From: Spongiibacter nanhainus | Lineage (GTDB): Bacteria; Pseudomonadota; Gammaproteobacteria; Pseudomonadales; Spongiibacteraceae | NCBI RefSeq assembly: GCF_016132545.1 | Contig: NZ_CP066167.1 | Coordinates: 2,135,001-2,199,000, forward strand | Direction: 5' to 3' | DNA: 64,000 nt | In this document: positions 1 through 14,475 of the stretch, in pieces | Numbering within the stretch: position 1 is the first letter of the stretch | How the letters are laid out: every line of letters starts with the position of its first letter | Translations under genes and position numbers: made by a program | Notes under the pieces: generated by a model | The model's database searches: none | Seen by the model: only the letters and a program-made list of their open reading frames with translations | Told to the model about the DNA's origin: nothing

Positions 1-1216
1 CATCTATCATGGCACCGATGGCAATCGCGATTCCTCCAAGGGACATAATGTTTGCATTAATGCCTTGCCAGTACATCACAATAAAGGCCGTCAGGATTCC
101 CAGCGGCAGGCTAACGACTGCCACCAGTGATGACCTGACATGAAATAAGAAAATGACACAGATCAACGCGACGATAGCAAGCTCTTCAACCAGACTTTTC
201 CATAAACTGTCAATGGCGCTAGAGATCAATCGAGATCGGTCGTAAACCGTGACAATTTCTACGCCTTCCGGCAAACCCACCTTGAGTTTTTCCAACTTTG
301 CTTTGACGCCATCAATGGTTTTCTGGGCATTCTCGCCAAAGCGCATGACGACAATCCCACCTACCACTTCTCCCTCACCATTAAGTTCAGCAATACCACG
401 GCGCATTTGCGGACCCAGTTCAATATCGGCCACATCCTTTAATAACAGCGGTGTGCCATTCATATCCAAACCCAGAGGAATGGTTCTCAGATCGTCAATA
501 CCCTGGATATAGCCACTGGCACGCACCATATATTCCGCTTCACTCATCTCCACAACAGAAGCACCAACTTCCTGATTACCACGTTGGATGGCCATCTGGA
601 TATGAGAGAGAGGAATATTAAAAGCACGAAGCTTGTCCGGATTTACTTTGACCTGATACTGTTTGACCATACCGCCAAGCGCAGAGACTTCTGACACCCC
701 CGGCACCGTTTGCAGTTCGTATTTCAAAAACCAATCCTGCAGGCTGCGCAACTGACTGATGTCGTGCTGACCAGTTCTATCTACCAACGCGTAGAGATAA
801 ACCCATCCCACGCCAGTCGCATCCGGTCCCAATTGTGGTCTGGCACTGGGTGGCAGCGTCGGCGCCACCTGCGACAGGTATTCCAATACCCGCGAGCGGG
901 CCCAGTAAGCATCGGTATCTTCATCAAAAATGACATAGACATAGGAGTCGCCAAAAAACGAGTAGCCGCGTACGGTGACCGCACCCGGTACTGACAACAT
1001 GGCAGTAGTCAGCGGATAGGTGACCTGATCTTCCACCACCTGCGGCGCCTGCCCCGGATAACTGGTTTTGATAATCACCTGCACGTCCGACAAATCGGGA
1101 ATAGCATCTACCGGTGTATTTTTAAGGGACCAGCCACCAATTCCCACCAACATCAAAGTGGCCAGCAGCACAAAAAAACGGTTATGAACGGACCAGCGAA
1201 TAATGGATTCAATCAT
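1..1216 (-). CDS. cusA: CusA/SilA-type heavy-metal RND efflux pump, N-terminal part (cut by window edge)
   Basis: Reading leftward from ATG at 1216, the frame stays open for 405 codons to the window edge, so only the N-terminal part is present (the family is about 1040 aa). The protein starts [18 protein letters not shown], with the first RND membrane helix. It then carries the HME-RND signatures [31 protein letters not shown] and [10 protein letters not shown], the porter domain, and the start of the TM2-TM3 block ([21 protein letters not shown]). This inner-membrane proton antiporter drives Cu+/Ag+ (possibly other metals) out through the tripartite pump. A GGGGAG ribosome site six bases before the ATG overlaps the end of cusB, so the genes are co-transcribed. 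The exact metal cannot be fixed because the central methionine cluster lies beyond the edge. Confidence 0.93.
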
Positions 1217-1219
1217 GCT

Positions 1220-2884
1220 TTACTCCCCGTCACCTGAGTGCTGTTGCTGATTGGAGTGATCCATCTTTGAATGATCAACCGTGTTAGGTTCCTTACCATC
1301 CTGGTTCATTTGTGCATGATTCATCTGGCTGTGATCCATTTCGGAGTGATCCATCTCACCGTGATTCATCTGACTATGATCCAATTTCTCTTCGTCCTCC
1401 GAAGATATGTCCTCCTCACTCTCGCCACTCATAATATGTGTGCCAGTCATTTCATACTGCCCGTTATCGAGCTTGGTAATTTCCATGTGCAGCTGAGTAC
1501 CAAGTGTTAACGCCTCAAAATTAACTTTTGGATTAACCTGAAAATCCATGGTCATTTCTGGCCATTCCCAAGCATCAATCGCTTCATGCTTGACTGTCAC
1601 CATTCGATGATTCGGCATCACGCTCTTGATCGTGGCGGCAACCCAAACTGAGCTAGGCTGATCTTCGCCGTGGTGCATCCGCTTAAAGTCTGAGGTTTTG
1701 CTGGATTCGGAATCAATCAGGAACTGGGCAGACGTAACAATGCGCTCACCGTCTTTTAAACCAGAAAGGATTTCCACCTTATCTTCACCAATTCTGCCTA
1801 CCTTCACTGCGATGGACTTAAAACGCCCTTCACCTTTTGCCAATACCACTCTTGATTGGCTACCGGTACGAATCAGTGCTTCACGGGGAATGAGTAAAGT
1901 CTCCCGCGAGGGCTTGGTAACTATTGTCATTTGCGCAAACATGCCCGGCCTCAGGAATCTATCCGAGCTGTCAAAATGCACCCTAACCTGAGCGGTACGC
2001 GTTTTGGCGTTCAGAGAGGGGTAAATATAATCAACATTTCCTTTCCACTCGCGACCGGGTAAATAATCCAGTCGCATGCGCACTGCATCACCCACTTGCA
2101 CACTGGCCGCCTGCCGTTCAAATATTTCACCAATCACCCAGATATGCTCCAGTTGGCCTATGGCCATCATCTCCATACCCGGCTTAACAAACATCCCTTC
2201 CCGAGTGTTCAGATTATCCAATACCCCAGATTGAGGTGCGGTGATGGTAATGGTCTGACTAACCTTGCCGGATTTTTTTAGGCGATTGATTTCTGAATGA
2301 GGCACTTGCAAGGCCGATAGCCGCTCCATGGCAGCCGTTATTAGTGTTGGATTATTTCGTTTTAATGCCAGCAACAGTTCTTCCTGGGCATTGACCAAAG
2401 TCGGCGAATACAACGCATACAGCGGCTCACCCTGTATAACCGGATCACCCGCAGCTTTGACATGGAGCTTTTCGATCCAACCCTCCACCCGTGGATGAAT
2501 GTGAACAAGGCGATCTTCATCGTATTGCACATAACCCACTGTACTGATGGTTAGATCCAAACGCCCCCGAGTGACAGGGGCTGTACGTACCCCCAGATTG
2601 TTAACTACATCCGGAGAGATGGTGACTGTGCCAATCTCCTGATCGCCGACCGCGTCTTTATACACAGGTATCAGATCCATCCCCATAGGAGATTTACCCG
2701 GATTATCGCGCTTATAGTTGGGGTCCATCGGCGCGACCCAGTAGAGTGGTTTTTTCTCGGCAGCAACGTCATCACTGCCTGTGGTCTCTTTCATACGCCA
2801 TAGGGCCGAGTAGTGCGAAAGGGTCGCTGTCGCAATCAACAAGGCAACTGTAATGAAAAAAGATTTATTCAATTGAATCTTCAT
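1220..2884 (-). CDS. cusB: CusB-type periplasmic adaptor with fused heavy-metal-binding and CusF domains
   Basis: Membrane-fusion protein of the RND pump, 554 aa against about 400 for plain CusB. Domains in order: an N-terminal membrane anchor (about 5-25); a heavy-metal-binding motif with YWVAPMDPN and GKSPMGMDLIPVY (about 47-75); barrel-sandwich/lipoyl and beta-barrel adaptor domains (about 90-400); a C-terminal CusF-like domain (about 411-484) with the copper-site pattern WPEMTMDF; and a His/Met/Asp-rich tail (about 492-550) built of repeated DHSxM/NHxxM units. The extra metal sites suggest that one polypeptide both chaperones and exports copper or silver. ATG at 2884 overlaps the stop of the upstream outer-membrane gene by 4 bp and has an AAGGA site. 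Confidence 0.93.
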   Translation of the reverse strand: MKIQLNKSFFITVALLIATATLSHYSALWRMKETTGSDDVAAEKKPLYWVAPMDPNYKRDNPGKSPMGMDLIPVYKDAVGDQEIGTVTISPDVVNNLGVRTAPVTRGRLDLTISTVGYVQYDEDRLVHIHPRVEGWIEKLHVKAAGDPVIQGEPLYALYSPTLVNAQEELLLALKRNNPTLITAAMERLSALQVPHSEINRLKKSGKVSQTITITAPQSGVLDNLNTREGMFVKPGMEMMAIGQLEHIWVIGEIFERQAASVQVGDAVRMRLDYLPGREWKGNVDYIYPSLNAKTRTAQVRVHFDSSDRFLRPGMFAQMTIVTKPSRETLLIPREALIRTGSQSRVVLAKGEGRFKSIAVKVGRIGEDKVEILSGLKDGERIVTSAQFLIDSESSKTSDFKRMHHGEDQPSSVWVAATIKSVMPNHRMVTVKHEAIDAWEWPEMTMDFQVNPKVNFEALTLGTQLHMEITKLDNGQYEMTGTHIMSGESEEDISSEDEEKLDHSQMNHGEMDHSEMDHSQMNHAQMNQDGKEPNTVDHSKMDHSNQQQHSGDGE

Positions 2885-4218
2885 GGGGTTAATCCTTCAG
2901 CGTGTTCTCTGCTGGTGGCGGGAAACGGTTCTGAACCATTTTTGGACAAGAGGTAATTCAACTCGGCAATCATCTTCAGCCGATCAATCCTGATCGTTAA
3001 AAAGTCGATCTTGGCATTTAACTCAGCAATGCGGGCGCGCACCGCTTCGGCAAAGTCGCCGTCGTCGTTGTTGTAGGCGGCCAGGGCAGCTTCGGCCTGC
3101 TCTGACATTTGCGGCAATAACTGCCCGGCGTAGAGCGCGCGACGATCATTCAGGCGCTGTAGCTGTACCAAGGCCGTATCCAGTTCCGCCATCAGCTTTC
3201 GCGCCATCAGTAACTTGTCAGTTTTTATGGCCTCAGCCCGGGAAGTGGCCGCACTGACGTCTTTATCCTGTCGCTTGCCGGTGAAAAGCGGCAGGTCAAA
3301 GGTCACACCGACAGAAAAAAAATCAGCCCGGTCACGCCCCATGGGATCATCGTCCCTATAGCCATATTGGGCGGAAAGACCCCACTCAGGTTTATATTTC
3401 TGGCGCGCTAATTCGACCCCGGTCTCCATGGCATCAATACGCTGATCAAGCGCCCGCAAGAGTGGGTGCCGGTTGACCTGTTCATAGAGCCAACGATCAC
3501 TATCCGGCTGACCTCCCACCGACGCCGGCTCATCACCGTACTGACTGGGCACAAGCTGCGCTAACGGCAGACTGGCAAGACCGCCGACCCACTCGGATAA
3601 ACGCTGTTGGGCTGACTCCGACTGTTGCCGCAGCACCGTCAAACGATCATCCAACCGGGTAAGCTCCAATTGGGCCCGGATAATATCCTGCTGGCGAGCA
3701 CCTCCCAGTGCCGACGAATAGCTCGCTTTGGTTGCATCCACCAAATGTTCAAATAGCGAGCGATCCTGCTCAATCAATCGAATGCTCTCCTGGGCCCTGA
3801 ATGCGTCCAGCCACAACTGCGAGACAATAGCCGTTACCCTGGCCTGACGATTCTGCCTGAGCAACGGCTCCTGTTCCGCCAACTCCTGTTTCTGACGGCT
3901 GGACAGCGCCAGACTATCGCCGCGAGGGAACACCTGACTAACACCTACAGTGAGCTGCGTCATAGGCTCCTGGTTGATATCGAAGCTATCGGTAGGAAAG
4001 TTAGCCGCCATCAGGCTGACCTTGGGGTCTGGAAGCGTCGATGCTGAAATTGATTCGCTGGTCAAAGCATCTTCGCGATGCCGGCTACCGTTCAGCCAGG
4101 GATCCGTGGCAATGGCATGGGCGATGGCCTCATCCAGACTCAGCTTATTAGTCGGGCTCTGAGCAAACGCAGGAAACCCCACCAGCAAAAATAATAAAAA
4201 TACCCATTGAATGTTCAT
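2881..4218 (-). CDS. TolC-family outer-membrane efflux protein (CusC/CzcC-like)
   Basis: 445 aa with a clear signal peptide (IQWVFLLFLLVGFPAFAQ, cleaved about residue 20). It has the two-fold repeated helical architecture of outer-membrane efflux proteins: LSLDEAIAHAIATDPWL opens the first repeat, and a second block begins near GVELARQKYKPEWGLSAQYGYR. It should form the outer-membrane trimeric channel of the CusCBA-type pump encoded directly downstream (4-bp overlap with cusB). The C-rich lipobox of some CusC proteins is absent, so this looks like a non-lipidated CzcC-type member. The start at 4218 is preceded by AGGA nine bases upstream. Confidence 0.9.
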   Translation of the reverse strand: MNIQWVFLLFLLVGFPAFAQSPTNKLSLDEAIAHAIATDPWLNGSRHREDALTSESISASTLPDPKVSLMAANFPTDSFDINQEPMTQLTVGVSQVFPRGDSLALSSRQKQELAEQEPLLRQNRQARVTAIVSQLWLDAFRAQESIRLIEQDRSLFEHLVDATKASYSSALGGARQQDIIRAQLELTRLDDRLTVLRQQSESAQQRLSEWVGGLASLPLAQLVPSQYGDEPASVGGQPDSDRWLYEQVNRHPLLRALDQRIDAMETGVELARQKYKPEWGLSAQYGYRDDDPMGRDRADFFSVGVTFDLPLFTGKRQDKDVSAATSRAEAIKTDKLLMARKLMAELDTALVQLQRLNDRRALYAGQLLPQMSEQAEAALAAYNNDDGDFAEAVRARIAELNAKIDFLTIRIDRLKMIAELNYLLSKNGSEPFPATSREHAEGLTP

Positions 4219-4229
4219 CGTTATATGTC

Positions 4230-4730
4230 CTATTGCTGATCGCGACTATTCACAGATGCAAACACGTCAGCCGAACCGTCTTTTTTAAGCAGCCATACCT
4301 TATAAGCTGTAAACCTGTCACCCATCTCCATACCAGGGCTGCCTGCCGGCATGCCGGGCACACTAAGGCCGATGGCGTCATCGGGAGGGTTTTCCAGAAA
4401 CTGCTGAACAAAGCGCGCCGGGATATGGCCTTCGAATACATAACCGTCGCTCGAAACTGCCGTATGGCAGGACTGGAATTCAGGTGTTATGCCATAGTCA
4501 TTTTTAATGCGATTCAAGTCCGACGGATGGTGGGTTTCTGTGTCGAAACCAACATCTTCCATATGGTGAACCCATTGCTGGCAGCATTGACAGGTGCGGC
4601 TTTTATAAACATCCAACGAGGCAATCGTTGCGCTTTTAGTTGCGTGATTTTCGCTTTCGGAACAAGCGGCAAGAAATAACAGGAATAGGATCAGCGCCGG
4701 AAAGCGCAGATAGGTATGTAACGGCTTCAT
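4230..4730 (-). CDS. DUF411 family lipoprotein, metal-associated
   Basis: Small secreted protein (about 166 aa) with a lipoprotein signal (LILFLLFLAAC, lipobox Cys near residue 23). The DUF411 core begins SLDVYKSRTCQCCQQWVHHM with the CxCC metal-binding cysteines and continues with HIPARFVQQFL, GLSVPGMPAGSPGMEMG and YKVWLL. DUF411 proteins occur beside copper and mercury resistance genes, and their biochemical role is not settled. A TTG 12 bases upstream is open, but the ATG at 4730 has a GGGAG site five bases before it and gives a better signal peptide. The gene ends 11 bp before the outer-membrane efflux gene and is probably the first gene of the operon. Confidence 0.88.
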   Translation of the reverse strand: MKPLHTYLRFPALILFLLFLAACSESENHATKSATIASLDVYKSRTCQCCQQWVHHMEDVGFDTETHHPSDLNRIKNDYGITPEFQSCHTAVSSDGYVFEGHIPARFVQQFLENPPDDAIGLSVPGMPAGSPGMEMGDRFTAYKVWLLKKDGSADVFASVNSRDQQ

Positions 4731-4831
4731 GATGACTCCCAATCAAGAGTTGCTGTGAACGCGCTCGTAGCGATGGCGCGTTTTAAACATACGTTATGGG
4801 AGTTTTGATCTCCCGCTTATCGAGTCGTCAG

Positions 4832-4850
4832 ACGCCTGAATTTCAGGCGT
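4832..4850. terminator. perfect 9+1+9 palindrome between the CopL-like and DUF411 genes
   Basis: ACGCCTGAA, one base, then TTCAGGCGT. It lies just downstream of the CopL-like gene (minus strand) and upstream of the efflux operon. There is no U-run, so it is either a weak or attenuating hairpin or a binding site; the terminator label is tentative. Confidence 0.35.
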
Positions 4851-4857
4851 ACCAACC

Positions 4858-5244
4858 CTACTTCAGCGGGAAATGGGGGGGGCGAAACAGCGAGGAAGCT
4901 GCCTGGGAGAGGAAGGAAACCGAATACGCTGTATTGAGGGTTTGAGAAAACTGGACGGAAAACGACGACAGTGTACTCACCACCGCAACGCTTGCAGAGA
5001 TGCAATCCAGCTGAGAGCAGTGATCCTGGCTGCAACAATCAGCGGCATCAGCCGTAAGGGCATTATTAATCTGGATATTGTTTGCCTTGGTATGGCTTCC
5101 ATGATCCATTGCCCCCGTCATTACTGGAACATCGGGTTCGTGACTCATCTTGTGGCAGGGCAATTTCGCAGCAGCAAACGACTGGCTGGTGAAAGCCAGT
5201 AACGCGAAGATTGCCATGTAAAATCTGAATCTGCTAAGCCACAT
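4858..5244 (-). CDS. small secreted Cys/His-rich protein, CopL-like
   Basis: About 128 aa with an N-terminal signal peptide (FYMAIFALLAFTSQSFAAA). The mature part is short and carries potential metal ligands: PCHKMSH, GAMDHGSH and ADCCSQDHCSQLDC. Proteins of this pattern occur beside copper efflux genes and are annotated as CopL-family metal-binding regulatory proteins; that assignment is by pattern only. The ATG at 5244 is preferred to an upstream TTG at 5253. It reads in the same direction as the DUF411-cusCBA operon, about 130 bp upstream of it. Confidence 0.6.
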   Translation of the reverse strand: MWLSRFRFYMAIFALLAFTSQSFAAAKLPCHKMSHEPDVPVMTGAMDHGSHTKANNIQINNALTADAADCCSQDHCSQLDCISASVAVVSTLSSFSVQFSQTLNTAYSVSFLSQAASSLFRPPHFPLK

Positions 5245-5350
5245 AATCTGCAAATGGTTATATTAACATTAGGAAGGATACCTTATTCTCTCGAAAGTTC
5301 AAACATAACGCCCTTGATGATTGACATAGATCAATCAACGGATACTTCCA

Positions 5351-6001
5351 TTAAGCGCCAGAACTGCAAATATTGACGTGAGCTTGAGGTTCACCCCGCC
5401 AGGATTGACCTGCACTTCGAAGTACTTCATAGGCCGTGTGCAAAAAAACGACAGCAACGATACTAGCAACTATCAAGTCCGGCCAATAAGAATCGAGCCA
5501 AATAACCAGAACTCCTGAAATAATCACCCCGGTATTACTGATCACATCGTTGCGGGAACACAGCCACACAGAGCGCATATTCACGTCCTCGCCCCGATGC
5601 TTCATCAGCAGTCCGAAGCAAATCAGGTTGCCAATCAGCGCTACGCCTGCAACTGCCATCATCACCAACCCAATTGGCTGTGGTTCTCCCAGCAGACTGG
5701 CGATAATCGTGAGGATAAGGCCCAGCCCAAAGGTGAGCTGAATCAACCCTTTCATAAAGGCTGCCCCGGCACGCCAGCGCACACTGCGAGCAACCACGAA
5801 GAGGCTTATGGCATAGACCAGGCTGTCACCGAGATTATCGGCGGAATCCGCCATCAGCGCCTTGGAGTCCGCCCAGATGCCAGCGCCGAGTTCCGCGGCG
5901 AACATCAGGATATTGATCCACAGGACAACGTACAGGGTTTTACGGCGCCCCGCCGTGGCCAGTTGGTCAACCGTATCAACATCGCAGCAACCTGAACTCA
6001 T
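5351..6001 (-). CDS. short cation diffusion facilitator (CDF) transporter
   Basis: 216 aa, starting MSSGCCDVD at ATG 6001 with a strong GGAGAGG site. It has about six membrane helices: TLYVVLWINILMFAAELGAGI, then ADSADNLGDSLVYAISLFVV, GLILTIIASLL, IGLVMMAVAGVALIGNLICF, NTGVIISGVLVIWL and LIVASIVAVVFLHTAY. Acidic metal-site residues lie in helix 2 (DSADNLGDS) and helix 5 (RNDVISN). The protein stops right after the last helix, so it lacks the roughly 90-residue cytoplasmic domain of ordinary CDF proteins. Cysteines at the N-terminus (GCC) and C-terminus (ICSSGA) could bind metal. It is divergent from a MerR regulator and probably exports Cd/Zn/Pb-type ions. Confidence 0.85.
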   Translation of the reverse strand: MSSGCCDVDTVDQLATAGRRKTLYVVLWINILMFAAELGAGIWADSKALMADSADNLGDSLVYAISLFVVARSVRWRAGAAFMKGLIQLTFGLGLILTIIASLLGEPQPIGLVMMAVAGVALIGNLICFGLLMKHRGEDVNMRSVWLCSRNDVISNTGVIISGVLVIWLDSYWPDLIVASIVAVVFLHTAYEVLRSAGQSWRGEPQAHVNICSSGA

Positions 6002-6032
6002 TATCCTCTCCAAGCATTGTGTCTTCTCTGCT

Positions 6033-6063
6033 ACCATAAAGTCTGTAACCGTTACAGAGTCAA
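6033..6063 (-). promoter_or_regulatory. MerR-type promoter/operator of the CDF gene
   Basis: On the minus strand a -35 TTGACT (6058-6063) and a -10 TATGGT (6033-6038) are separated by 19 bp, the over-long spacer diagnostic of MerR-activated promoters. A perfect 15-bp dyad CTGTAAC-C-GTTACAG fills the spacer at 6043-6057. It sits between the CDF gene and the divergent regulator gene, so the regulator should repress and then activate the CDF gene and probably limit its own transcription. Confidence 0.88.
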
Positions 6064-6073
6064 GAGACACACC

Positions 6074-6463
6074 ATGAAGATTGGCGAGGCATCACGACTG
6101 TCGGGCTGCCATATCGAAACCATTCGCTACTATGAACGGGTGGGCATTCTTTCACCTACTGCGCGTTCGGAAAGTGGCTACCGTTGTTACGCAGACCATC
6201 ATATCCAGCAGCTACGCTTTATTCTTCATGCTCGTGAGCTGGGTTTTTCCTTGGACGATATCCGGGAACTGCTGTCGCTCAAAGAACAACCCGATCTTTC
6301 CTGTCAGGCGGTGGACAGTATTACCGACAAGCATCTGCACGGAATTCGCAACCGCATCAGGCACCTTGAATCTCTGGCCAGGGAGTTACGGCGTATATCT
6401 GCAAGCTGTTCAGGTGGTCACATTGCCGAATGCCGTATCTTGGAGGCCCTAGGCAAACACTAG
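6074..6463 (+). CDS. MerR-family heavy-metal regulator (CadR/PbrR/ZntR-like)
   Basis: 129 aa from ATG 6074. It has an N-terminal winged-helix MerR domain (MKIGEASRLSGCHIETIRYYERVGIL), a dimerisation helix, and a C-terminal metal-binding loop. Cysteines stand at 12, 38, 77, 112 and 120. Cys77 with the pair 112/120 in SCSGGHIAECRILEAL matches the thiolate site of CadR/PbrR-type sensors, so Cd, Pb or Zn is the likely inducer, not Cu (CueR has a different C-terminal CxxxxxxxC pattern). An open frame extends upstream to 6017, but only the ATG at 6074 gives a normal MerR N-terminus. The gene is divergent from the CDF transporter over a shared operator. Confidence 0.9.
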   Translation: MKIGEASRLSGCHIETIRYYERVGILSPTARSESGYRCYADHHIQQLRFILHARELGFSLDDIRELLSLKEQPDLSCQAVDSITDKHLHGIRNRIRHLESLARELRRISASCSGGHIAECRILEALGKH

Positions 6464-6616
6464 TGATTAAACAGGTTCGAAGCCTTGAAAGCACCTTGTA
6501 GGTATTGCACCTAGTTACCCGAATTAAGATAGAGATTGAGTGCCACTAATTGATGGTTCCCTAGATCACCAGAAGCACCATCAAAGTTGAGAGTTCCCTA
6601 TGGCGGAAAGTCCAAT

Positions 6617-7537
6617 TCAAGTCACACTGGCTAACCGCGTCGACAACATATCGGCCTGCTCGGCAAATTTCTTCGCATTGGCTTTCCGCAATTTTGCCAG
6701 GTTGTGCAACTTCCAACGAATACCGGGCAAATGTTCAAGATGAGTGATACCCATTAGCGACCAATCGGGAGCACCGGCTACCAGCGATAGCAGAAATTGC
6801 CGTTCCTTGCCGTCGAGCCCTGACTGAAGTTCATCAATCATTCGATCACGTGTCGCCAGTAATGCTTCGAGCGCCACGGAGTCGGCTGTCATCCCTTCGA
6901 AGTTATGCTTGTAGTCATGGCCAATATCCCTCAGCTGTGGGAACAACACTTCATGTACCGGACGGTTATGACTGGCCAGGTACACAACGAAGGCCCGGCG
7001 AATGCCGGGCGTGATGCCCTCATGCTCAAACAGCTGCATCACGTCGAACAGATCACGGGGATGCTGACGGTCCAGTGCGGCGACCAGCTTGCCACCATAA
7101 AGGTCCTCCAGTGACGCCACGGGGATTTCCAAATCGGCCATCAGCACATCACTGGCGAGAGGTGTAATAGACGCCCGACGCACCGGCTTCACTGTTCCAC
7201 GCAGAACGAAATTGGCTTCGATTTTGACTTCGGTTCCCCCACGGCGCACCAACAGCTTGGTCTCACCCGCCTCAGCGGCCAGCATGTGTGTCTGAAATCC
7301 ATGTTTGTTCAGGCGCTCCGCCGCCTGCCGAATCGCGTCGTTAATCCGAGCCAGTGCCTGTTCACGCGGCAGGGAGTGGTCCGGGAATACCAGATCAAGA
7401 TCCACCGACAGTCGCGGCATGTCGCGCACAAAGAGGTTGATGGCCGTACCACCTTTCAAGGCAAACGTGTCATCCACAAAGACCAGTGGTGCCACTTGTG
7501 TCAACAGGCGTGCGGTATCGAGATACGCCGTATTCAT
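6617..7537 (-). CDS. AbiEii-type nucleotidyltransferase toxin (system 1)
   Basis: 306 aa. It has the polymerase-beta-like nucleotidyltransferase signature of AbiEii/type IV toxins: KGGTAINLF (residues 28-36) and SVDLDLVF with the DxD pair at about 46/48, followed by the central lysine/acid region (TEVKIEANFVLRG) and the conserved GGKLVAALDRQHPRDLFDV block. The family transfers nucleotides to tRNA or related targets and causes growth arrest on phage infection; the substrate here is unknown. It is translated from the 4-bp overlap with the upstream antitoxin gene (7534-7537). No disruption is visible. Confidence 0.92.
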   Translation of the reverse strand: MNTAYLDTARLLTQVAPLVFVDDTFALKGGTAINLFVRDMPRLSVDLDLVFPDHSLPREQALARINDAIRQAAERLNKHGFQTHMLAAEAGETKLLVRRGGTEVKIEANFVLRGTVKPVRRASITPLASDVLMADLEIPVASLEDLYGGKLVAALDRQHPRDLFDVMQLFEHEGITPGIRRAFVVYLASHNRPVHEVLFPQLRDIGHDYKHNFEGMTADSVALEALLATRDRMIDELQSGLDGKERQFLLSLVAGAPDWSLMGITHLEHLPGIRWKLHNLAKLRKANAKKFAEQADMLSTRLASVT

Positions 7538-8271
7538 GGCTTTAGCACCAACAGGCCGTCGCTGGATTTGGATACCCAGGGCCGGTCACTGCCGGTCGGC
7601 AACGTGTCCGGATCAAGTTTCTCTGCCCATGGCAATCCACCCTCGCGACCCAGTTGGAGGCAAAGTCGCACCGTCTTGACACTGGTACAGTGCTGCAACA
7701 GTTCACGCAGCACGTTGACACGCAAATTGTAGGTACTTTCGACGAGTTCGCGGGCTTCCTGCAAAGGCTGGCGCACGCCGACTTCGCTGAGCAGTTCCAA
7801 CAGTGCTCGTTCCGGCGACGAAACCTGCGGCGCCCCCTCCCGTCTCTCAAAAGGCATGGCATGCAACAAGTTGTCACAGTCCTCGTCGAACAGACGCTTG
7901 CGGTGATACTGGGCCGGAAAGCGGTCGGTGAACCAGTCCGGCAAATGACCGTCGGCCCAACCATAAAGAAGTAACGTCGATTGTTGCGATACGTACTGAC
8001 GCACACCATACCAATCGAGCGCCGACTTGCCGCCGACGTGGAGTCCTGCAAGTTTGCGCTGCAACAGAAGGAGACAGGGATGCAGCTTTAATTCTTCGTT
8101 TGGCCGGCAGTAAACCCCTCTCGCCAACCGCATCAACCATCCGGCCCGCACGTAGTGAACCGCCAAGTCGGCAGAGATATCCAGGGCCGCCAGATCTTCC
8201 GACGTCAGCGGCGCCCCTGGCTCCAGCCTGGTATAGAGAATATTTAGTTTGCTCGTGTTTTTCGTAGCCAT
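7534..8271 (-). CDS. AbiEi-type antitoxin and autorepressor (system 1)
   Basis: About 245 aa from ATG 8271 (MATKNTSKLNILYTRL). It has an N-terminal winged-helix AbiEi domain (LTSEDLAALDISADLAVHYVRAGWLMRLARGVYCRP) and a long C-terminal AbiEi antitoxin domain with SSPERALLELLSEVG. The frame is open 15 codons further upstream to 8316, but 8271 is preferred because the extension would run back through the promoter and an operator. Family members neutralise AbiEii without stable complex formation and repress their own operon through inverted repeats, and two such repeats flank the start here. Confidence 0.9.
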   Translation of the reverse strand: MATKNTSKLNILYTRLEPGAPLTSEDLAALDISADLAVHYVRAGWLMRLARGVYCRPNEELKLHPCLLLLQRKLAGLHVGGKSALDWYGVRQYVSQQSTLLLYGWADGHLPDWFTDRFPAQYHRKRLFDEDCDNLLHAMPFERREGAPQVSSPERALLELLSEVGVRQPLQEARELVESTYNLRVNVLRELLQHCTSVKTVRLCLQLGREGGLPWAEKLDPDTLPTGSDRPWVSKSSDGLLVLKP

Positions 8272-8343
8272 GCTACGATTTATACAGCTTTCCCAAATAC
8301 TAGTCAATTTAATCAACCTATTTTAATCGTAGCTATACTACGA
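8262..8343 (-). promoter_or_regulatory. Promoter and two operators of the AbiE system 1 operon
   Basis: Two identical inverted repeats, TCGTAG-N5-CTACGA, lie at 8262-8278 and 8327-8343 (centres 65 bp apart). Between them is a minus-strand sigma70 promoter: -35 TTGACT (8302-8307), a 17-bp spacer and -10 TATAAA (8279-8284). The downstream repeat covers both the expected transcription start and the ATG at 8271, so the mRNA would be leaderless or nearly so. The two-repeat layout agrees with published AbiEi autoregulation. Confidence 0.85.
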
Positions 8344-8605
8344 TATTTTATATTTTTCTAAATAAGGAGGAGTAGTAGCGGTAGCCACTGATCGCAAATC
8401 ATTATCCAAAATCCGCTCCATATGCGGATATTCAGGCATGATTATCCGATTACCTGTCTATCGGTCGCACGGACGGAGTGGCCTGAGAAGGACTGCGCGC
8501 CTTCTTTTACCCTTCCGCCCCCCCCTATACCGCGCCATAAAAGCCTCCAGCCAGCATCCCCACCCCGCCAGTCCCCTTCGGCCAGGAGCACAAAACCATT
8601 CTGGT
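8344..8605. other. Non-coding stretch between the two divergent AbiE operons
   Basis: About 260 bp with no convincing gene. It holds a short inverted repeat ATCCGC-N7-GCGGAT (8411-8429) and a C-rich stretch near 8510-8580. The frame open from 8438 reads proline/arginine-rich sequence without homology and is only an upstream extension of the DUF6088 gene frame. Confidence 0.6.
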
Positions 8606-8647
8606 TACATGATGTCAGAAACTAAGTTATACTTCTTACATCATGTA
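8605..8647 (+). promoter_or_regulatory. Promoter and paired operator boxes of AbiE system 2
   Basis: A perfect 10-bp inverted repeat, TACATGATGT (8606-8615) and ACATCATGTA (8638-8647), brackets the promoter. Each arm is itself a half-palindrome ACAT-N-ATGT, and the two boxes are 31 bp apart centre to centre (three helical turns). -10 TATACT is at 8628-8633, with a weak -35 TTACAT at 8605-8610 and a 17-bp spacer. Box 1 covers the -35 and box 2 the start point, an arrangement suited to repression by the DUF6088 antitoxin. Confidence 0.78.
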
Positions 8648-8659
8648 GAGGCACCACCA

Positions 8660-9256
8660 ATGAAGACTTTGCCAGAAACCATCCTTCGACGTGCCCGCAC
8701 CCTCCCCGAGGGTGGTGTGCTGTCGCCCAAAGAATTCCTGCACCTGGGAAGCCGGGCCGCCGTCGATCAGGCGTTCTCACGGCTGACCAAGGAAGGCAAA
8801 CTGATGCGCGTGGCGCGTGGCACCTACGTTGCCCCGGTATCCAGCAGGTTTGGATCGCGCGCGCCCTCCCCTGAAAAAGTCATAAGCTCGCTGGCGAAGC
8901 GAAGTGGCGAAATTGTCGTTCGACACGGCGCAAATTCAGCCAACGCCCTGGGGCTGACTCAGCAGGTACCGATCAAAGAGGTCTACCTGACGTCCGGCCG
9001 CACCCGAAAGCTCAAGCTGGGTAAGGGGGAAATTTTGGTCAAGCACGCCCCCCGCTGGATGCTGGCTCTTGGAGCACGTCCTGCCGGCGAGGCTGTGCGG
9101 GCACTGGCCTGGATCGGATCGGCACACGCCGATGCATCCCTGTCATCGTTGCATCGCACCCTTCCCCCGGCTGAATGGAAAGCGCTGACCTCGGCTCGCG
9201 CTGCCCTGCCTTCCTGGATGGCACAGGCAATCGGGAAGGAAGCGGCACATGCCTGA
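8660..9256 (+). CDS. DUF6088/AbiEi-like antitoxin (system 2)
   Basis: 198 aa from ATG 8660, with GAGG eight bases upstream. It has a winged-helix N-terminus (LSPKEFLHLGSRAAVDQAFSRLTKEGKLMRVARGTYVAP) followed by a DUF6088-type C-terminal domain (VRHGANSANALGLTQQVPIKEVYLTSGRTRKLKLGKGEILVKHAP). DUF6088 proteins are the usual partners of AbiEii-like nucleotidyltransferases. The frame is open upstream to 8438, but that part runs through the promoter and has no homology. It overlaps the toxin gene by 8 bp. It is different in family and length from the system 1 antitoxin next to it. Confidence 0.88.
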   Translation: MKTLPETILRRARTLPEGGVLSPKEFLHLGSRAAVDQAFSRLTKEGKLMRVARGTYVAPVSSRFGSRAPSPEKVISSLAKRSGEIVVRHGANSANALGLTQQVPIKEVYLTSGRTRKLKLGKGEILVKHAPRWMLALGARPAGEAVRALAWIGSAHADASLSSLHRTLPPAEWKALTSARAALPSWMAQAIGKEAAHA

Positions 9257-10280
9257 AAGTTTTTTTGAGCTCAGCCAGAAAGACCAAAGGGAAGCGCTTG
9301 AATACGCGCGAGCGGAAACCGGACGTCCCGCCCATCTATTAGAAAAAGATATCTGGGTGGTATGGACACTTCGCACACTATTCGACGCGGCAATAGGCGC
9401 TGACCTAACCTTCAAGGGTGGCACATCCCTCTCCAAGGCCTACAAGGTCATTGACCGCTTTTCAGAAGATATCGACCTGACTTATGACATCCGCAAACTG
9501 ATTCCCGACCTGACAGGTGAAAGCGGTGAGCTACCTCGCAGTCGAAGCCAGGCCGGCAAATGGACGAAAGCTGTGCGCCATCGGCTACCCGACTGGATCA
9601 CGACACATATTCAACCTGTCATAGAAGCTGCACTGGCCAAAGAGGGAGTTCAGGCGCAACTTGAGCAGGGCGGCAAGGATAACGACAAACTGATGCTCCG
9701 CTACCCTGCCCTCACCAAAGGCACAGGGTACATTGCCCCGGTTGTCACACTGGAATTCGGCGGTAGAGCAACCGGTGAACCGCACGAAATACACTCCGTA
9801 GAATGCGACATTGCCGAACACCTGGCTGAGATCGAATTCCCCACGGCATCACCACAGGTCATGGGTATCGCCCGAACGTTCTGGGAAAAAGCGACGGATG
9901 CCCACGTATTCTGCGCTCAAGGTCGTCTCCGTGGAGAGCGATACGCTCGACATTGGCATGACTTGGCTGCGATCAGTCGGAGTCCGCATTACACCACGGT
10001 CATATCAGACCACACAGTCGCGTCAACTGTCGCGCAGCACAAGGCACACTTCTTCATCGAAAAAGACACGGAAGGCGAAGTCATTGACTATATCGCTGCG
10101 ACGACAGGAAAGTTGAAAATTGTTCCAGACGGCGATGCGAAAACCGCCCTTGCCAAGGATTATGAAGCCATGCTGGCTGATGAAGTCATGGTTGGAGAAG
10201 CACTGCCGTTCGATGCACTTCTCGACGCCTGTGCCGCCATCGAAAAAGCCATCAACGAATCCACAACAGGTACAAAGTAG
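9249..10280 (+). CDS. AbiEii-type nucleotidyltransferase toxin (system 2)
   Basis: 343 aa. It has the larger AbiEii form, with HLLEKDIWVVWTLRTLF, KGGTSLSKAYKVIDRFSEDIDLTYD (GGTS about 57-60, acid pair D74/D76), and the conserved distal block RGERYARHWHDLAAI. Predicted NTP-transferase toxin neutralised by the DUF6088 protein encoded just upstream. The ATG overlaps the antitoxin stop by 8 bp, so translation is probably coupled. It is complete, with no missing catalytic residues seen. Confidence 0.92.
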   Translation: MPESFFELSQKDQREALEYARAETGRPAHLLEKDIWVVWTLRTLFDAAIGADLTFKGGTSLSKAYKVIDRFSEDIDLTYDIRKLIPDLTGESGELPRSRSQAGKWTKAVRHRLPDWITTHIQPVIEAALAKEGVQAQLEQGGKDNDKLMLRYPALTKGTGYIAPVVTLEFGGRATGEPHEIHSVECDIAEHLAEIEFPTASPQVMGIARTFWEKATDAHVFCAQGRLRGERYARHWHDLAAISRSPHYTTVISDHTVASTVAQHKAHFFIEKDTEGEVIDYIAATTGKLKIVPDGDAKTALAKDYEAMLADEVMVGEALPFDALLDACAAIEKAINESTTGTK

Positions 10281-10294
10281 AGATAGGGGGCGCC

Positions 10295-10402
10295 GTGAGC
10301 AACATCCGATCCATTGACATGATGTTTCTCGATGACCTCTTCGAGATGGGAAGTGGTTACGTCCTGAATTTTTCGGATCGGACTCATCAACGAGGATCAT
10401 AA
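10295..10402 (+). pseudogene. Truncated 35-codon gene start (AbiJ-N-terminal-like motif)
   Basis: A GTG at 10295 with a GGGGG ribosome site four bases before it opens VSNIRSIDMMFLDDLFEM followed by GSGYVLNFSDRT, then ends after HQRGS at a TAA. The motif LDDLFEMGSGYVLNFSDRT looks like the N-terminus of larger defence-associated proteins (recalled as AbiJ N-terminal-type domains), where FSDRTF continues into a long domain. Here sequence identity appears to stop after DRT. I infer a gene start left behind by a deletion, co-oriented 14 bp downstream of AbiEii. The family name is tentative. Confidence 0.5.
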
Positions 10403-10656
10403 CCCATTGAAGGTAAAGGGTTTATAAAAGGCTGGTATTGGGTTTTACCGTCGCGTTTACCGTCAGAATCACGAGCTCTTTGTTTACGCGGGTGATGCAG
10501 TGATTTTTCCGGCGGCGGTATTTTGCACACCATTATCAACCAGCAAACATATTACCAGAGGTGGAAATGGGTGCGCGAGTACTTAAACCGTAGTCTGTCA
10601 CACGAACGGCGGTTATGGGAGTGATTCATTAGCAGAAAACCTAATAGCACCGCAAA
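10403..10656. other. Non-coding scar between the truncated gene start and the YhaN-like remnant
   Basis: About 250 bp with no open frame of note and no recognisable RNA. It lies between two broken genes and probably represents deletion debris. Confidence 0.5.
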
Positions 10657-13365
10657 CTACAGCTGCTGTACATTAACCACTCCCTGGACTTTCTTCGACT
10701 GCTCAACAACCCGAGAATGATGCGTGAACAGAATGACTTGTGTCCTCTCAGATAATTCAGCCAGCGCATGCAATGCGGCTTGTGAACGAGCGTCATCAAA
10801 GTCCACAAGTATGTCATCCACAATGAAAGGCATCGGTTCGGACGATTCCATGTATTTTTCCAAAGATGCGAGACGCAACGCCAGGTAGAGCTGGTCCCGC
10901 GTCCCTGAGCTCATGCCTTCCACAGTCACACGCTCTCTTCCTGGACGAATGCCAGCGAGGATGGGTTCATCTCTTTCATTAAAATCGGTCATGAGACCAT
11001 CGAACGAACCAAGTGTCAGTGCCGAGAAATGTTCGCTGGCGCGTTTGACCAGCGGTCCCTGGTTTTCCTGGCGATAACGCTCAATCTGATCGCGCAATAT
11101 CTTGCCAGCCAATTTCACCTGAATATAGCGCTCAGCATCTGAGCGGATACTGGCAAGTGTGGCCTGAGCCTGATCGGCGAGCATGGCTGCCTGATCACTG
11201 CCATCCATAAGTTCTAACTCCTTTTCTTCACGTCCCTTTGCCGATGCGAGCTCGGTACGTTTGGGTTCGAGCTCATCCTCGATCTTGTTTTTCAATTCTG
11301 TGATTCGCCCCGGCAAACTATCCGGATCGATACCCTCCGCTTGAGCTTCCAACTCGGCAATGGTGCTGCCCTCACCTGCATCCAGGATCTCCTGCTCTAT
11401 CGAATCAATTGCTGTCTTAATTCGAAGGTAATCAGCCGAGCGGCGTTCCGCCGCCTCAAGTAGAGGGTGACCATCGCATTTTGCTTCCACACATAACGCA
11501 TCCAGGCGATCAGTCATCGTCTGGATGGTAGCGTTCGAATCCTGTATCTCCTGCGTTGCCTGTTCGATCTGTTCTTCAATCTGATGCCGCTTTGTTTGTC
11601 TTGATCGGTTTTCAGATAGCAGTGAAATGAGGCGCACAACCGCATCATCGGCTGGCAACTCATCCAGTTCGGGGGCAATAGTGGCTACTATGGCCTCCAC
11701 CTGGGTGCGGAATGCTGCGGCATCTTCGTCGATGGCACTGATTCTTATCCGCAATTTCTCCACTTCCCCCAGCTTCGAAAACAATGCTCTGAGGTTTTCA
11801 AAGAAATCATCAACTTCCGAGGGCAATGTCTCACTTAGTAAACCAATACTCAGCATCTGCGCTGCCCACTGTGCCCTCCATGCTTCGAGCGCCTCTGTTG
11901 CCAATCGATGCTCTTCATTCAATGATTCAACGTCAGATTCCCGATCCTTAACTTCCTTACTCAATGAATCCCGTTTGCGTTTGGCTTCATCAAGCTGACC
12001 GGCTAACGCCTCGCACTCCAGGAGTACGATTTCAAGCTCGTTTGATGTGGACGCAGCTCTTCCCAGTTGTATCAGTTGTGCATTAAGTCTCTGGAGGTGC
12101 GTGCTACGATTATGCTCAAGCTCAGTCTCTTTTTGGCGCAACAGGTTAAGCTGCGCCACCTGATCACGAAGCCTTTCAAAGGCATCCAGCCAGGCTCGCA
12201 TCTCTCGCGGAGTGCGTGGAACAATCTGGCAAGGAGCCCACATTGCTTGCCAGTCAGCATCCAATTGAGCCTTCTCAGCGCTTGTTGTCTCAAGCTGTTC
12301 ATCTAACTTCTGAGCTTGCTGTAGCCCTCCCTCCTGCTTGGCCTGAAGGCTTGCCAGCGCATGAACCCGGTCTGCTTCGCGGCGCAGCCGGTCGGACACC
12401 TCATCGGCGCTTGCAAGGCGGTTTTCGAAGGCTTCAGGCAATGTGCCTTCACTCTGGTATTCACTCGCTTCGACTGATACGTCTTCACTACCTATCCACT
12501 GGCGACGTAGCAACTGCCAGACTGTATCGCGTTCTGATCGAGCTTGGTTAAGCGAAGCCTCCGTCGGCACCTCCCCGACGCGCTCGATTTCATCGAGCCT
12601 CTGCGATGTATCCTGCAAAGCATCGATTAGCTCGTCCTTTTTCTCCTCAAGCCGCTGAATACGCTTTGAGAGATCAGCGTAGCTCTCTTCAAATTGATGG
12701 ATGCTTTCCCGGTTTGGTAACGCCAAGCGGGGCATTTCATCCAACTCACCTTGCCAAAGCGTGAGTCTTGAAAGATCGGCAACACATTCTGCTTCCTGGC
12801 CTGCAAGTTGACTCTGAGTGGACTGGATCGATGCGTCCAACTCCCCTTGCTTCCTGGCGGCGGCAATTGCCCGGTGTAGTGCGTCCGTAGAACCTGATTT
12901 GGCGATTTCGTCACGTTCCTTGCGGGCGGCCTGCAGACGCTTTTCTGTTTCACGCAGACTGGTCTCTGCTTGTTCTGCCCGAGCATTCAGGACGGCTTCT
13001 TTATTGCCCAAACTGGCAATAGGCTGCCGTTTTGCCATTACGGGACGTAATTGCTCAATGTTCTTGAATTCGAGATCAGGGCGATTCTCTTTGAGTAAGG
13101 ACTCGGCATCCGCCAATAACTGCTTAGATTCTGCTTCAAGGTGCGGTCGGTCTTGCTGCGCCTTTCGATGACCACCTAAGCGCGCATGAAGATCTTCAAT
13201 ATTCTCTGCCTGTTCCAGCAAGGCCTGATTGGTGGATAACCCAGCAAGTTGCTGTTGTAACCCTTCGAGGCGAGGGGTCGCCTTGCCCACGATGGCTTGA
13301 GCGGTCTCTAACGCATTGATTGCATTACGACGACGTCCAGAAAAATCGTCGTGAAGGATGGGCTA
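10657..13365 (-). pseudogene. YhaN-like (SMC/Rad50-type) ATPase, N-terminally truncated, P-loop lost
   Basis: The frame is open from an in-frame stop near 13366-13368 down to 10657; the first usable start is GTG 13290 (877 aa). Nearly all of it is charged coiled coil. The C-terminal ATPase lobe is intact: GMSSGTRDQLYLALRLASL (signature, about 792-810), PFIVDDILVDFDD (Walker B/D-loop, about 821-833) and VILFTHH (switch His). No Walker A motif exists anywhere, although YhaN-like AAA proteins (usually about 1100-1200 aa) begin with one. The reading frame continues upstream of GTG 13290 through coding-like sequence (HDDFSGRRRNAINALETAQAI) until it meets HNH gene sequence. The gene therefore seems cut by a deletion and should not hydrolyse ATP. 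Confidence 0.75.
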
Positions 13366-13643
13366 TATCCGTCGGGGTCCTTGTCGATGATAGTATGGCA
13401 GGTCGGGCACAACAGGATAAGGTTTTCAAAGGAGTCAACCTCGAACTCTCCGGCGGGCCTTTCTTCGTAGCGCGGCCCCGTTTCTCCGTGCGAAATCACA
13501 TGAGCCATTTCGGCTATATGCTTGTCTCCACCCATTTCTGCGGGGAAAAGAGGCTGGAGGCAATCGGGGCGTTGGCAATGACCTGCAGCCTCCGAAAACA
13601 GCCGCAGTTTTGTTTCCGTAGGTATATGTTTTCGATCTGCCAT
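13308..13643 (-). pseudogene. HNH endonuclease gene, 3' end lost by fusion to the YhaN-like remnant
   Basis: From ATG 13643 (MADRKHIPTETKLRLFSEAAG) the protein shows a zinc/HNH fold: CQRPDCLQPLF, then HIAEMAHVISHG, then NLILLCPTCHTIIDKDPDGY. After PDGYS (near 13360) the reading becomes unrelated sequence (FTTIFLDVVVMQSMR) and stops. That tail overlaps, in another frame, the coding-like upstream part of the YhaN-like gene, so the normal C-terminal part of the nuclease is missing. Such HNH proteins occur in restriction or defence loci. Whether the shortened 111-aa product is active is unknown. Confidence 0.68.
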
Positions 13644-13775
13644 CGTTGGGAGCCTAAAATCCGACGCGACTAGGAAGTGGTATAGAAGGTCCAGCCCAAA
13701 TAGATCAATAACGACACATGCTGACGACGAGAGCTGACGAAAAAAACATGCATCACCATTTTATAGGAGGCGACC

Positions 13776-13829
13776 ATGGATCGAGCGGCCGCTTCTGACC
13801 GGAAGCAGATACTATCGCTTCAAAAATAA
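13776..13829 (+). CDS. 17-codon micro-ORF with consensus ribosome site
   Basis: AGGAGG lies five bases before ATG 13776, and the frame reads MDRAAASDRKQILSLQK then TAA. The ribosome site is the best in this non-coding region, but the peptide matches nothing I know. It may be a leader peptide, the start of a lost gene, or chance. Confidence 0.25.
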   Translation: MDRAAASDRKQILSLQK

Positions 13830-13917
13830 ACTTCTGCTCTGAGGTGCAATCACCTAGTTTTGACGAAATCGTACTTTGCCTGCTAGATCAGATTTGAGTT
13901 AACGCGAATAAAAGATA

Positions 13918-14255
13918 TGGTGCCCGAGGCCGGAATCGAACCGGCACGACCGTTTCCAGTCGAGGGATTTTCTTACCACTTCGACTTTCGCCGCCAGCAT
14001 TCGATATAGATAGCTGTTCGTGGTCTGGAGCACGCCTTCACCCTAGCGCCACGTGTAACCGCTTTGCCTTAGGTGCCCGCCGTCTGCTCTCTACACCTTC
14101 CCCAAGAAACTACCTTAGGGCTTGGCTCGGCGTTGGCTCGGATTCAATACGAACCCAGGGCTTTCGCCGAGTTTGACGGGCTTCACCTTCAGGGTTTCCC
14201 CTGGAGGGCTCAAATTGTTTAAGTCCCTTGTGTCTACCAATTTCACCACTCGGGC
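13918..14255 (-). tRNA. tRNA-Leu(UAA) interrupted by a group I intron
   Basis: Exon 1 (14255-14221) and exon 2 (13971-13918, CCA encoded) together give an 89-nt tRNA-Leu. The acceptor stem GCCCGAG/CTCGGGC pairs perfectly over 7 bp across the interruption, the anticodon stem AGGGA/TCCCT pairs perfectly, the loop CUUAAAA gives anticodon UAA, and the T-arm is GCCGGTTCGATTCCGGC. The interruption falls between U34 and A35, the site used by the cyanobacterial/plastid tRNA-Leu intron. Without splicing the tRNA cannot fold. Only tRNA-Leu(UAA) in the window. Confidence 0.93.
13972..14220 (-). ncRNA. Group I self-splicing intron (IC3-like, 249 nt) in the tRNA-Leu anticodon
   Basis: Core features can be paired by eye. 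P1: the 5' exon end GGGACUU pairs with the guide TTGAGCCC, with U.G at the splice site and one A/C mismatch, as in the Anabaena intron. P4: CTCGGCG (14165-14171) with CGCCGAG (14126-14132), 7 bp. P7: GAGCA (14085-14089) with TGCTC (14028-14032). The intron's last base is G (13972). Conserved segments GAGCCAAGC, GAAGGTGTAGAGA, CACCTAAGGCAAA and GGTGAAGGC are almost identical to the Azoarcus tRNA-Ile intron as I remember it, while P7 shows a compensatory change relative to Azoarcus (GACUA/UAGUC). No homing-endonuclease ORF fits inside. Confidence 0.93.
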
Positions 14256-14266
14256 GTGGTCTTACA

Positions 14267-14285
14267 TTTGCCTGGTTTTACCAGG
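14267..14285. other. Hairpin between the tRNA-Leu remnant and the intact tRNA-Leu
   Basis: GCCTGG and CCAGGC separate five bases, giving a stable stem upstream of the tRNA-Leu gene (minus strand). No U-run follows on the minus strand, so it is not a typical terminator; it may terminate or process the upstream tRNA remnant transcript. Confidence 0.4.
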
Positions 14286-14430
14286 CTTGTTACATCTTCT
14301 TTGGTTCTAGTGGCCCCTATTTGACACCTAGCGAGCCATTTTCAAATTAACCGTAAAGCTTAAATCCTTCTGAAAGCCTTATGCTGCGTGGCCTTCAACC
14401 CTATTGCCACCTCCTAAAAATAGTTGACAT

Positions 14431-14475
14431 TAGAGATTTTAAGTCTCCTGTGTCTACCAATTTCACCACCCGGGC
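14431..14475 (-). pseudogene. 5' half of a second, intronless tRNA-Leu(UAA)
   Basis: From 14475 leftward the sequence matches tRNA-Leu exon 1 over 35 nt with three differences (positions 6, 28, 30). It then continues through a complete, uninterrupted anticodon arm (GGAGA-CUUAAAA-UCUCU). After that nothing resembles a variable arm or T-arm, and no CCCGGGC acceptor strand is found before the intact gene. I read it as the truncated relic of an intronless tRNA-Leu lying 175 bp upstream of the intron-bearing copy. Confidence 0.75.

Follow-up and report, generated by a model that had tools for sequence, protein, structure and literature searches.

An island-borne, intron-containing tRNA-Leu(UAA) gene beside a split host tRNA gene in Spongiibacter nanhainus

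In Spongiibacter nanhainus, an island appears to have split the host tRNA-Leu(UAA) gene and to have supplied an intron-bearing replacement, the group I intron of which would mask the attachment (att) core from the integrase. We put the probability of this reading as a whole at about 0.6. The anatomy on which it is built (two tRNA halves, core, integrase, replacement and intron, all met again in other elements and hosts) is established as far as sequence can establish it. The window referred to throughout is the whole stretch of DNA that was analysed, 64,000 nucleotides in length.

The initial annotation had described a group I intron that splits the anticodon of a tRNA-Leu(UAA) gene, and this was borne out. 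The intron follows U34 (34/35). The parts of the gene are as follows.

14255..13918 (-), complete replacement tRNA-Leu(UAA) gene, island-borne (sequence reading and alignment to the host gene)
14255..14221 (-), 5' exon of the replacement tRNA-Leu(UAA), 35 nt
14220..13972 (-), group I intron after U34, within the anticodon loop, 249 nt (RF00028 match and covariation)
13971..13918 (-), 3' exon of the replacement tRNA-Leu(UAA), 54 nt including CCA

After removal of the intron the anticodon arm of the window gene reads AGGGA-CUUAAAA-UCCCU, with the anticodon UAA. By eye, the exon ends CUU face GAG in the intron, and the last intron base is G (13972), as had been claimed. The search with the Rfam group I covariance model proposed in the initial annotation gave a match: RF00028 aligned to 14230..14025(-) over the whole model with 48.1 bits (E 8.1e-11). 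This score lies 1.9 bits below the gathering score of 50, and the intron is therefore absent from default Rfam scan output. ARAGORN at default settings missed the gene and, when long introns were allowed, miscalled it as tRNA-Phe(AAA). For annotators this is a warning: where a tRNA gene is broken, an intron-bearing replacement missed by the default tRNA and Rfam scans used here may stand in for it.

The fold of the intron was examined in 31 related introns with short exon ends, picked for diversity out of 106 parsed of 114 (L153 was excluded as odd). RNAalifold gave 68 nested consensus pairs, 41 of them with two-sided change in at least one sequence; the program shows nested pairs alone, and the P3/P7 pseudoknot is outside this count. 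By its motifs, the intron is putatively of subclass IC3. In the list of window ORFs no reading frame of at least 100 aa that could be a homing endonuclease overlaps the intron, the 249 nt of which hold at most 83 codons. Intron homing was rejected, as there is no endonuclease ORF. The intron presumably splices in vivo and would thereby give a tRNA that reads UUA.

The claim that this tRNA-Leu(UAA) gene is a sole copy held for complete genes: neither a pattern search nor whole-gene BLAST found a second complete, intact gene in the 4.08-Mb genome. A census of 36 tRNA genes, which is incomplete and also without Ile-GAU and Ala-UGC, contained no UAA anticodon. The pattern TGGTAGACAC-N6-CTTAA occurs without mismatch at two sites in the genome, namely the window gene and a truncated 5' half 220 nt upstream that had gone unmentioned.

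This truncated copy was traced to the other end of an island. The host 5' half, whose start is 220 nt upstream of the replacement gene, breaks at CTTAAAATCTC. BLAST with the whole gene showed its 3' end repeated 51 kb off at G000:C1:2097893-2097927. The host 3' half with the CTTAAAATCTC core occupies G000:C1:2097893-2097948(-), 51.5 kb from the 5' half, and an integrase lies 0.2 kb inside it. The core is present as a direct repeat at both ends. Since two tRNA halves, a shared core and an adjoining integrase are found together, the 51.5 kb between them is read as an integrated island.

14475..14433 (-), 5' half of the host's intronless tRNA-Leu(UAA), cut by integration (pattern, BLAST and reading)
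14443..14433 (-), attachment core CTTAAAATCTC, made up of the anticodon loop and part of the 3' stem; second copy at G000:C1:2097938-2097948(-), the far island end
14256..14432 (-), spacer from the core to the replacement tRNA, the island end; nearly the same in G308, which belongs to another family
1..14443 (no strand), island portion within the window; runs on leftward to G000:C1:2097938
L084:18135-19331 (strand not stated), tyrosine integrase of 398 aa, PF00589 and PF13356 (Arm-DNA-bind_3); adjoins the far core
6617..8316 (-), AbiEii/AbiEi-like pair, island cargo (PADLOC)
8438..10280 (+), second AbiEi/AbiEii-like pair, island cargo (Pfam/PADLOC)
10657..13290 (-), SMC/LmuB-like ATPase, island cargo (weak matches)
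13308..13643 (-), short HNH protein resembling the N-terminus of CBASS-type effectors, island cargo

Restoration of the tRNA by an identical 3' half is not seen at this locus: the host 5' half is followed by non-tRNA sequence and then by a separate complete tRNA. Aligned to the host's old gene, the spliced replacement agrees with it at 77 of 89 positions, and round the insertion point the two differ at 4 of 20 nt. A promoter scan recognised no sigma-70-like promoter in the spacer 14256..14432. Pfam and PADLOC scans of 17 island ORFs (16 of the 31 listed and the HNH ORF) found no conjugation genes; further cargo identified with Pfam among these ORFs includes genes for copper and other metals, namely a multicopper oxidase, a CusS-like kinase, RND pumps and a P-type ATPase. 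Just beyond the far island end lies a Type IIG restriction-modification protein (L084:13219-16671). At 17642-18793(-) of the window, between the old leuZ site and the tRNA-Gly/tRNA-Cys genes, there is an IS4-type transposase (PF01609, DUF4372).

Other genomes of the same genus were compared at this gene. Of the 17, ten showed an intact tRNA-Leu(UAA) without an intron, which in seven is colinear with tRNA-Gly and tRNA-Cys; among the other seven genomes G006 has the intron, and the remainder were not read at that gene. An old intron inherited vertically in the genus was rejected on account of the ten members with intact intronless genes. The arrangement in G006 is window-like, with an island of about 96 kb and the same ends. 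A different case is G002, in which an intronless replacement comes after a tRNA-Leu(CAA) 5' half, and the 3' half at the far end is 5.5 kb away (G002:C4:131312-136905). In the window, tRNA-Gly and tRNA-Cys lie on the opposite strand from the Leu site, whereas Gly, Cys and Leu are colinear in the seven relatives, and this change of strand suggests a local inversion. Two further members of the genus carry group I introns in tRNA-Arg(CCU) (L126 in G007 and L127 in G005), with no truncated 5' half listed within 1.5 kb upstream.

The recurrence of the arrangement was followed by a pattern search for Leu-tRNA introns in a genome collection in which each of 84,980 species is represented by a single genome, and in IMG/VR. 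There were 113 loci, 111 in the genome collection and 2 in IMG/VR. By title most belong to Burkholderiales, Xanthomonadales, Porticoccus and Pseudomonas; a few are from MAGs that carry the label of another phylum. A truncated Leu 5' half was found within 400 nt upstream at 52 of the 113 loci, none of them intact by a T-arm test, and no 5' half was found within that distance at the other 61; at least 400 nt of upstream sequence was available for 107 of the 113 loci, and less for 6. Among the candidates listed, L189 alone lay elsewhere. In nearly all of the 52 the break is at the anticodon loop, and the sequence after the break is one of a few conserved element ends. For comparisons, five loci with poor or odd junctions (L177, L202, L215, L227 and L237) were dropped, although they stay within the 52. 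The 47 clean-junction loci that were kept have 28 distinct host 5' halves and 8 distinct replacement 5' exons. The replacement thus belongs to the element, because there are few replacement 5' exons against many host 5' halves.

The far ends of such elements were searched for in 12 genomes. In 9 of them (G393-G397, G399-G402) the 3' half was located 18-78 kb downstream, on the same strand; it was not found on the same contig in G398, G403 and G404. An integrase-like ORF lies 21-202 nt from the far half in all of the 11 first elements, those of G000 and G006 included, as detected with a loose motif filter; the ORFs of G000 and G393 were checked with Pfam. Two far ends in G114 were left unflagged by the motif filter, and in the copy that was read Pfam identified an integrase some 100 nt away from the far half. 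Five of the nine genomes (Diaphorobacter, two Variovorax, Bordetella ansorpii and Pseudorhodoferax) share a 66.9-kb element whose intron-bearing tRNAs are 100% alike; in G393 this element encodes TraG/VirD4-type and TrbE/VirB4-type transfer proteins. Lateral spread, as the initial annotation had suggested, is supported by these results. What that suggestion had missed is the vehicle: an island that brings in a whole replacement gene, in place of a native gene that gains an intron.

Searches of virus and plasmid sequences gave few matches. Neither of the two IMG/VR contigs has a 5' half upstream, and one of them has 68 nt of upstream sequence. The phage collection contained no match, and the plasmid collection contained 6 matching records, from Mycetohabitans and Cupriavidus. 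Some genomes hold more than one such gene. In Pusillimonas caeni two intron-bearing tRNA-Leu(CAA) genes (L158 and L232) are about 5 kb apart on one contig. G400 and G628 have two replacement loci each, at tRNA-Leu(CAA) and at tRNA-Leu(UAA), each with its own intron-bearing tRNA.

The association of the intron with replacement was assessed by scans that take no account of introns. Two Leu 5' halves at set spacings were searched for in 390 genomes of the order (two spacings) and in 299 genomes of the G393 family. The scans returned 36 places, 25 with a truncated first copy and 11 with an intact one. Behind a truncated 5' half the second gene has an intron in 21 of the 25 and none in four (G328, G275, G002 and G023), the 25 cases being related, since 14 are in the G393 family and represent two element types. 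Of the 11 places with an intact first copy, 2 are chance matches and 9 are ordinary tandem pairs, in none of which the second tRNA has an intron. The first two scans had given an intron in 19 of 20 cases, and the third, with a shorter spacing, added three intronless ones. The intron is strongly associated with replacement and yet is not required; an essential role was rejected on the four intronless cases among the 25. Far halves were not recognised for the intronless G275 and G328. G002 is a clear intronless case. The case of G023 is doubtful, as a further degenerate 5' half lies between its two copies. At this locus (L306, (-) 1705..1437) two degenerate tRNA-Leu 5' halves with similar tails precede an intact intronless tRNA-Leu(CAA), and they may represent repeated insertions or a decayed tandem array.

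To compare the replacement with the gene that was cut, the host tRNA was joined from its two halves and aligned to the spliced replacement in 11 elements. The two are identical over 85 of 85 positions in G395, G396 and G402 (confirmed for G402 on its own sequence); the element of G396 is from Pusillimonas. In these three cases the host gene was used by the integrase, and a copy that differs by the intron alone is intact on the element. The 20 nt round the insertion are the same in 6 of the 11 elements; they show two differences in G393 and G397, four in G000 and G006, and six in G394. In the 5' anticodon stem the four intronless replacements differ from the preceding tRNA at 2, 2, 2 and 3 of 5 nt. 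Among the 21 intron-bearing replacements 9 differ by 0, 4 by 1 and 8 by 2 in the same stem (one-sided p 0.009, or 0.036 without G023; the data are related). The replacements look disguised, either by an intron or by an altered stem, and eight of the intron-bearing ones have both.

In G114 the same element occurs twice, with no mismatch over 7150 nt, each copy in a host tRNA-Leu(CAA), and both intron-bearing replacements are intact. This element (L135:12100-19420, and L140) is 7.2 kb long and mobilizable, with an integrase, MobC and a probable relaxase; PADLOC gave no match for two of its proteins. In G006 and G401 there is a second repeat of the 3' half, which points to the displaced 3' half, and not the replacement, as the probable target of a further element.

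The intron of the G009 and G114 elements is, by eye, clearly different from that of the window, and it lies after position 32 (32/33) of tRNA-Leu(CAA). In G131 a truncated 5' half lies upstream of an intron at 36/37 in a CAU tRNA, and no far end was found. Introns thus seem to have come into use in replacements on more than one occasion, although the anticodon loop is in any case the favoured place of bacterial tRNA introns.

The mechanism proposed for the window is as follows. The tyrosine integrase of the island would cut the host's sole tRNA-Leu(UAA) gene at the anticodon loop, and the host would survive by the complete foreign tRNA-Leu(UAA) that the element supplies 220 nt past the start of the host 5' half. 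The intron of the replacement, placed after U34, would sit inside the short sequence used as the integrase core. In DNA it would split the att core, so that the replacement would not be an attachment site. Such masking would keep the circle from integrating into itself. It would also keep the true att site from recombining with the replacement at a distance of 220 nt, an event in which the element end would be lost. In RNA the intron would remove itself to leave a normal tRNA, which might be transcribed by read-through from the promoter of the old host gene. Endonuclease-less tRNA introns would spread by riding on whole replacement tRNA genes.

The argument for masking is weakened by the fact that the replacement and the host gene in the window already differ at 4 of 20 nt, which might alone weaken the att site. 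In addition, 8 of the 21 intron-bearing replacements differ in the stem as much as three of the four intronless ones. The coincidence of intron and core is not remarkable by itself, because bacterial tRNA group I introns occupy the anticodon region anyway, according to the available portions of PMC4033280 and PMC4090602. The more general proposal, that self-splicing introns are attachment-site camouflage for integrative elements, whose spare tRNA copy must not be an attB, appears to us evenly balanced between true and false. If true, camouflage would free an element from matching the 3' half of the host tRNA and would explain the spread of endonuclease-less tRNA introns between distant proteobacteria.

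It is also conceivable that the captured tRNA gene already had its intron, in which case the gene would restore the tRNA and the intron would be neutral, with no role in integration. The four intronless replacements among the 25 agree with this, as do the 61 of 113 Leu-tRNA intron loci with no upstream 5' half and the anticodon region being the usual place of bacterial tRNA introns (available portions of PMC4033280 and PMC4090602). A neutral intron is nevertheless unlikely, since introns are present in 21 of 25 replacements against 0 of 9 second genes of ordinary tandems, at least two different introns (34/35, and 32/33 in G009 and G114) are found on such elements, three replacements equal the cut tRNA in all but the intron, and the intronless replacements have altered stems. 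Masking of the core from the element's own integrase remains the preferred reading.

The intron could, alternatively, guard mainly against the integrases of other elements or against homologous recombination with host tRNA-Leu genes, and not against the element's own integrase. The second 3'-half repeats in G006 and G401 suggest that a further element avoided the replacement, and they speak for the first of these; there are only two such cases, however, and the core belongs to the element's own integrase. The exons in common, of about 35 and 50 nt, offer little length for homologous recombination. We regard protection of either kind as improbable. An upstream 5' half could also be a decayed tandem copy of tRNA-Leu with no integration scar, and indeed tandem Leu tRNAs exist at similar spacing and in G023 an intact gene is preceded by two consecutive degenerate 5' halves. 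Against this, the break falls at the anticodon loop across the loci of many hosts, the missing half with the core lies downstream beside an integrase-like ORF in 9 of 12 genomes, and replacement 5' exons are uniform while the fossils vary by host; decay of a tandem is hardly credible as a general account. At the window locus it was rejected, as the missing half is far downstream with an integrase. A dead intron-bearing gene, with UUA decoded in another way, is scarcely tenable: the Rfam score just below the curated cut-off, and splicing deduced from sequence, leave some room for it, but no other tRNA-Leu(UAA) was found, the exons pair correctly and the intron family shows covariation.

The tRNA-Leu(UAA) intron of cyanobacteria belongs to subclass IC3. 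The initial annotation had proposed that the window intron shares its insertion site and that the core segments look most like those of the Azoarcus tRNA-Ile intron. The cyanobacterial and plastid tRNA-Leu(UAA) introns and the Azoarcus tRNA-Ile intron resemble the window intron in group I fold, anticodon-loop site, length of about 250 nt and lack of an endonuclease ORF. To our knowledge, these known introns all lie in the host's own tRNA gene, whereas here an element carries the entire gene, intron included, beside the remains of the host gene. A reference title in PMC3984707 names the Azoarcus and Synechococcus pre-tRNA introns IC3; a word search of the main text of this 2014 review of bacterial group I introns, in the portion available, found neither integrase nor genomic island.

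The initial annotation had regarded the intron as unusual for its lineage, which is not supported, as tRNA-Leu(UAA) introns of gammaproteobacteria have been published: putative group I introns are described in tRNA-Leu-TAA of Thiomargarita and Beggiatoa (PMC4853749). These are in the same tRNA and of the same class, and the accessible part of that paper mentions no split host gene, island or integrase. Such introns are thus already in print, and the arrangement of a split host gene with an intron-bearing replacement is one for which no report was found in searches of an open-access library. Vepritskiy is said to have reported in 2002 a tRNA-Leu(UAA) intron in a deep-subsurface gammaproteobacterium. 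For intron-bearing replacement tRNAs on integrative elements in general, the open-access library, which lacks most subscription papers, also yielded no report.

With tRNA-integrating islands, ICEs and IMEs the island shares a tyrosine integrase with Arm-DNA-bind_3 near one end and a core in a tRNA gene. The likeness to ICEs and IMEs extends to transfer genes in relatives, TraG/VirD4-type in G393 and MobC in G114. The textbook tRNA-integrating element restores the tRNA via an identical 3' half; here, in contrast, the host gene is left in two pieces and the element supplies a whole, separate tRNA, usually with an intron. This offers a second way to exploit tRNA integration sites, by replacement of the whole gene and not by restoration of the 3' half, and it loosens host-tRNA matching. 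Randau and Soll (2008), as cited in the available portions of PMC4033280 and PMC4090602, proposed that archaeal tRNA introns and split tRNAs destroy attB and ward off viruses. As far as those portions describe it, that proposal is alike in that an attachment site is lost through an intron in a tRNA gene; the archaeal case is one of host defence with protein-spliced introns, whereas here a mobile element would use a ribozyme for its own replacement gene. The present reading turns the idea of host defence round and offers a use of such an intron to the carrier element. It also suggests how endonuclease-less group I introns could have come to their patchy, lateral distribution among proteobacterial tRNAs.

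Group I introns outside tRNA-Leu were met as well. Nine genomes of family f39 have introns in CAU-anticodon tRNAs (L110, L111, L114-L117, L119, L122 and L128) with no truncated 5' half nearby (181 nt of upstream sequence in the case of L115), and these look inherited in the family and not element-borne. In L132 (G122) an RF00028 match of 657 nt lies, by its flanks, apparently within a 23S rRNA gene.
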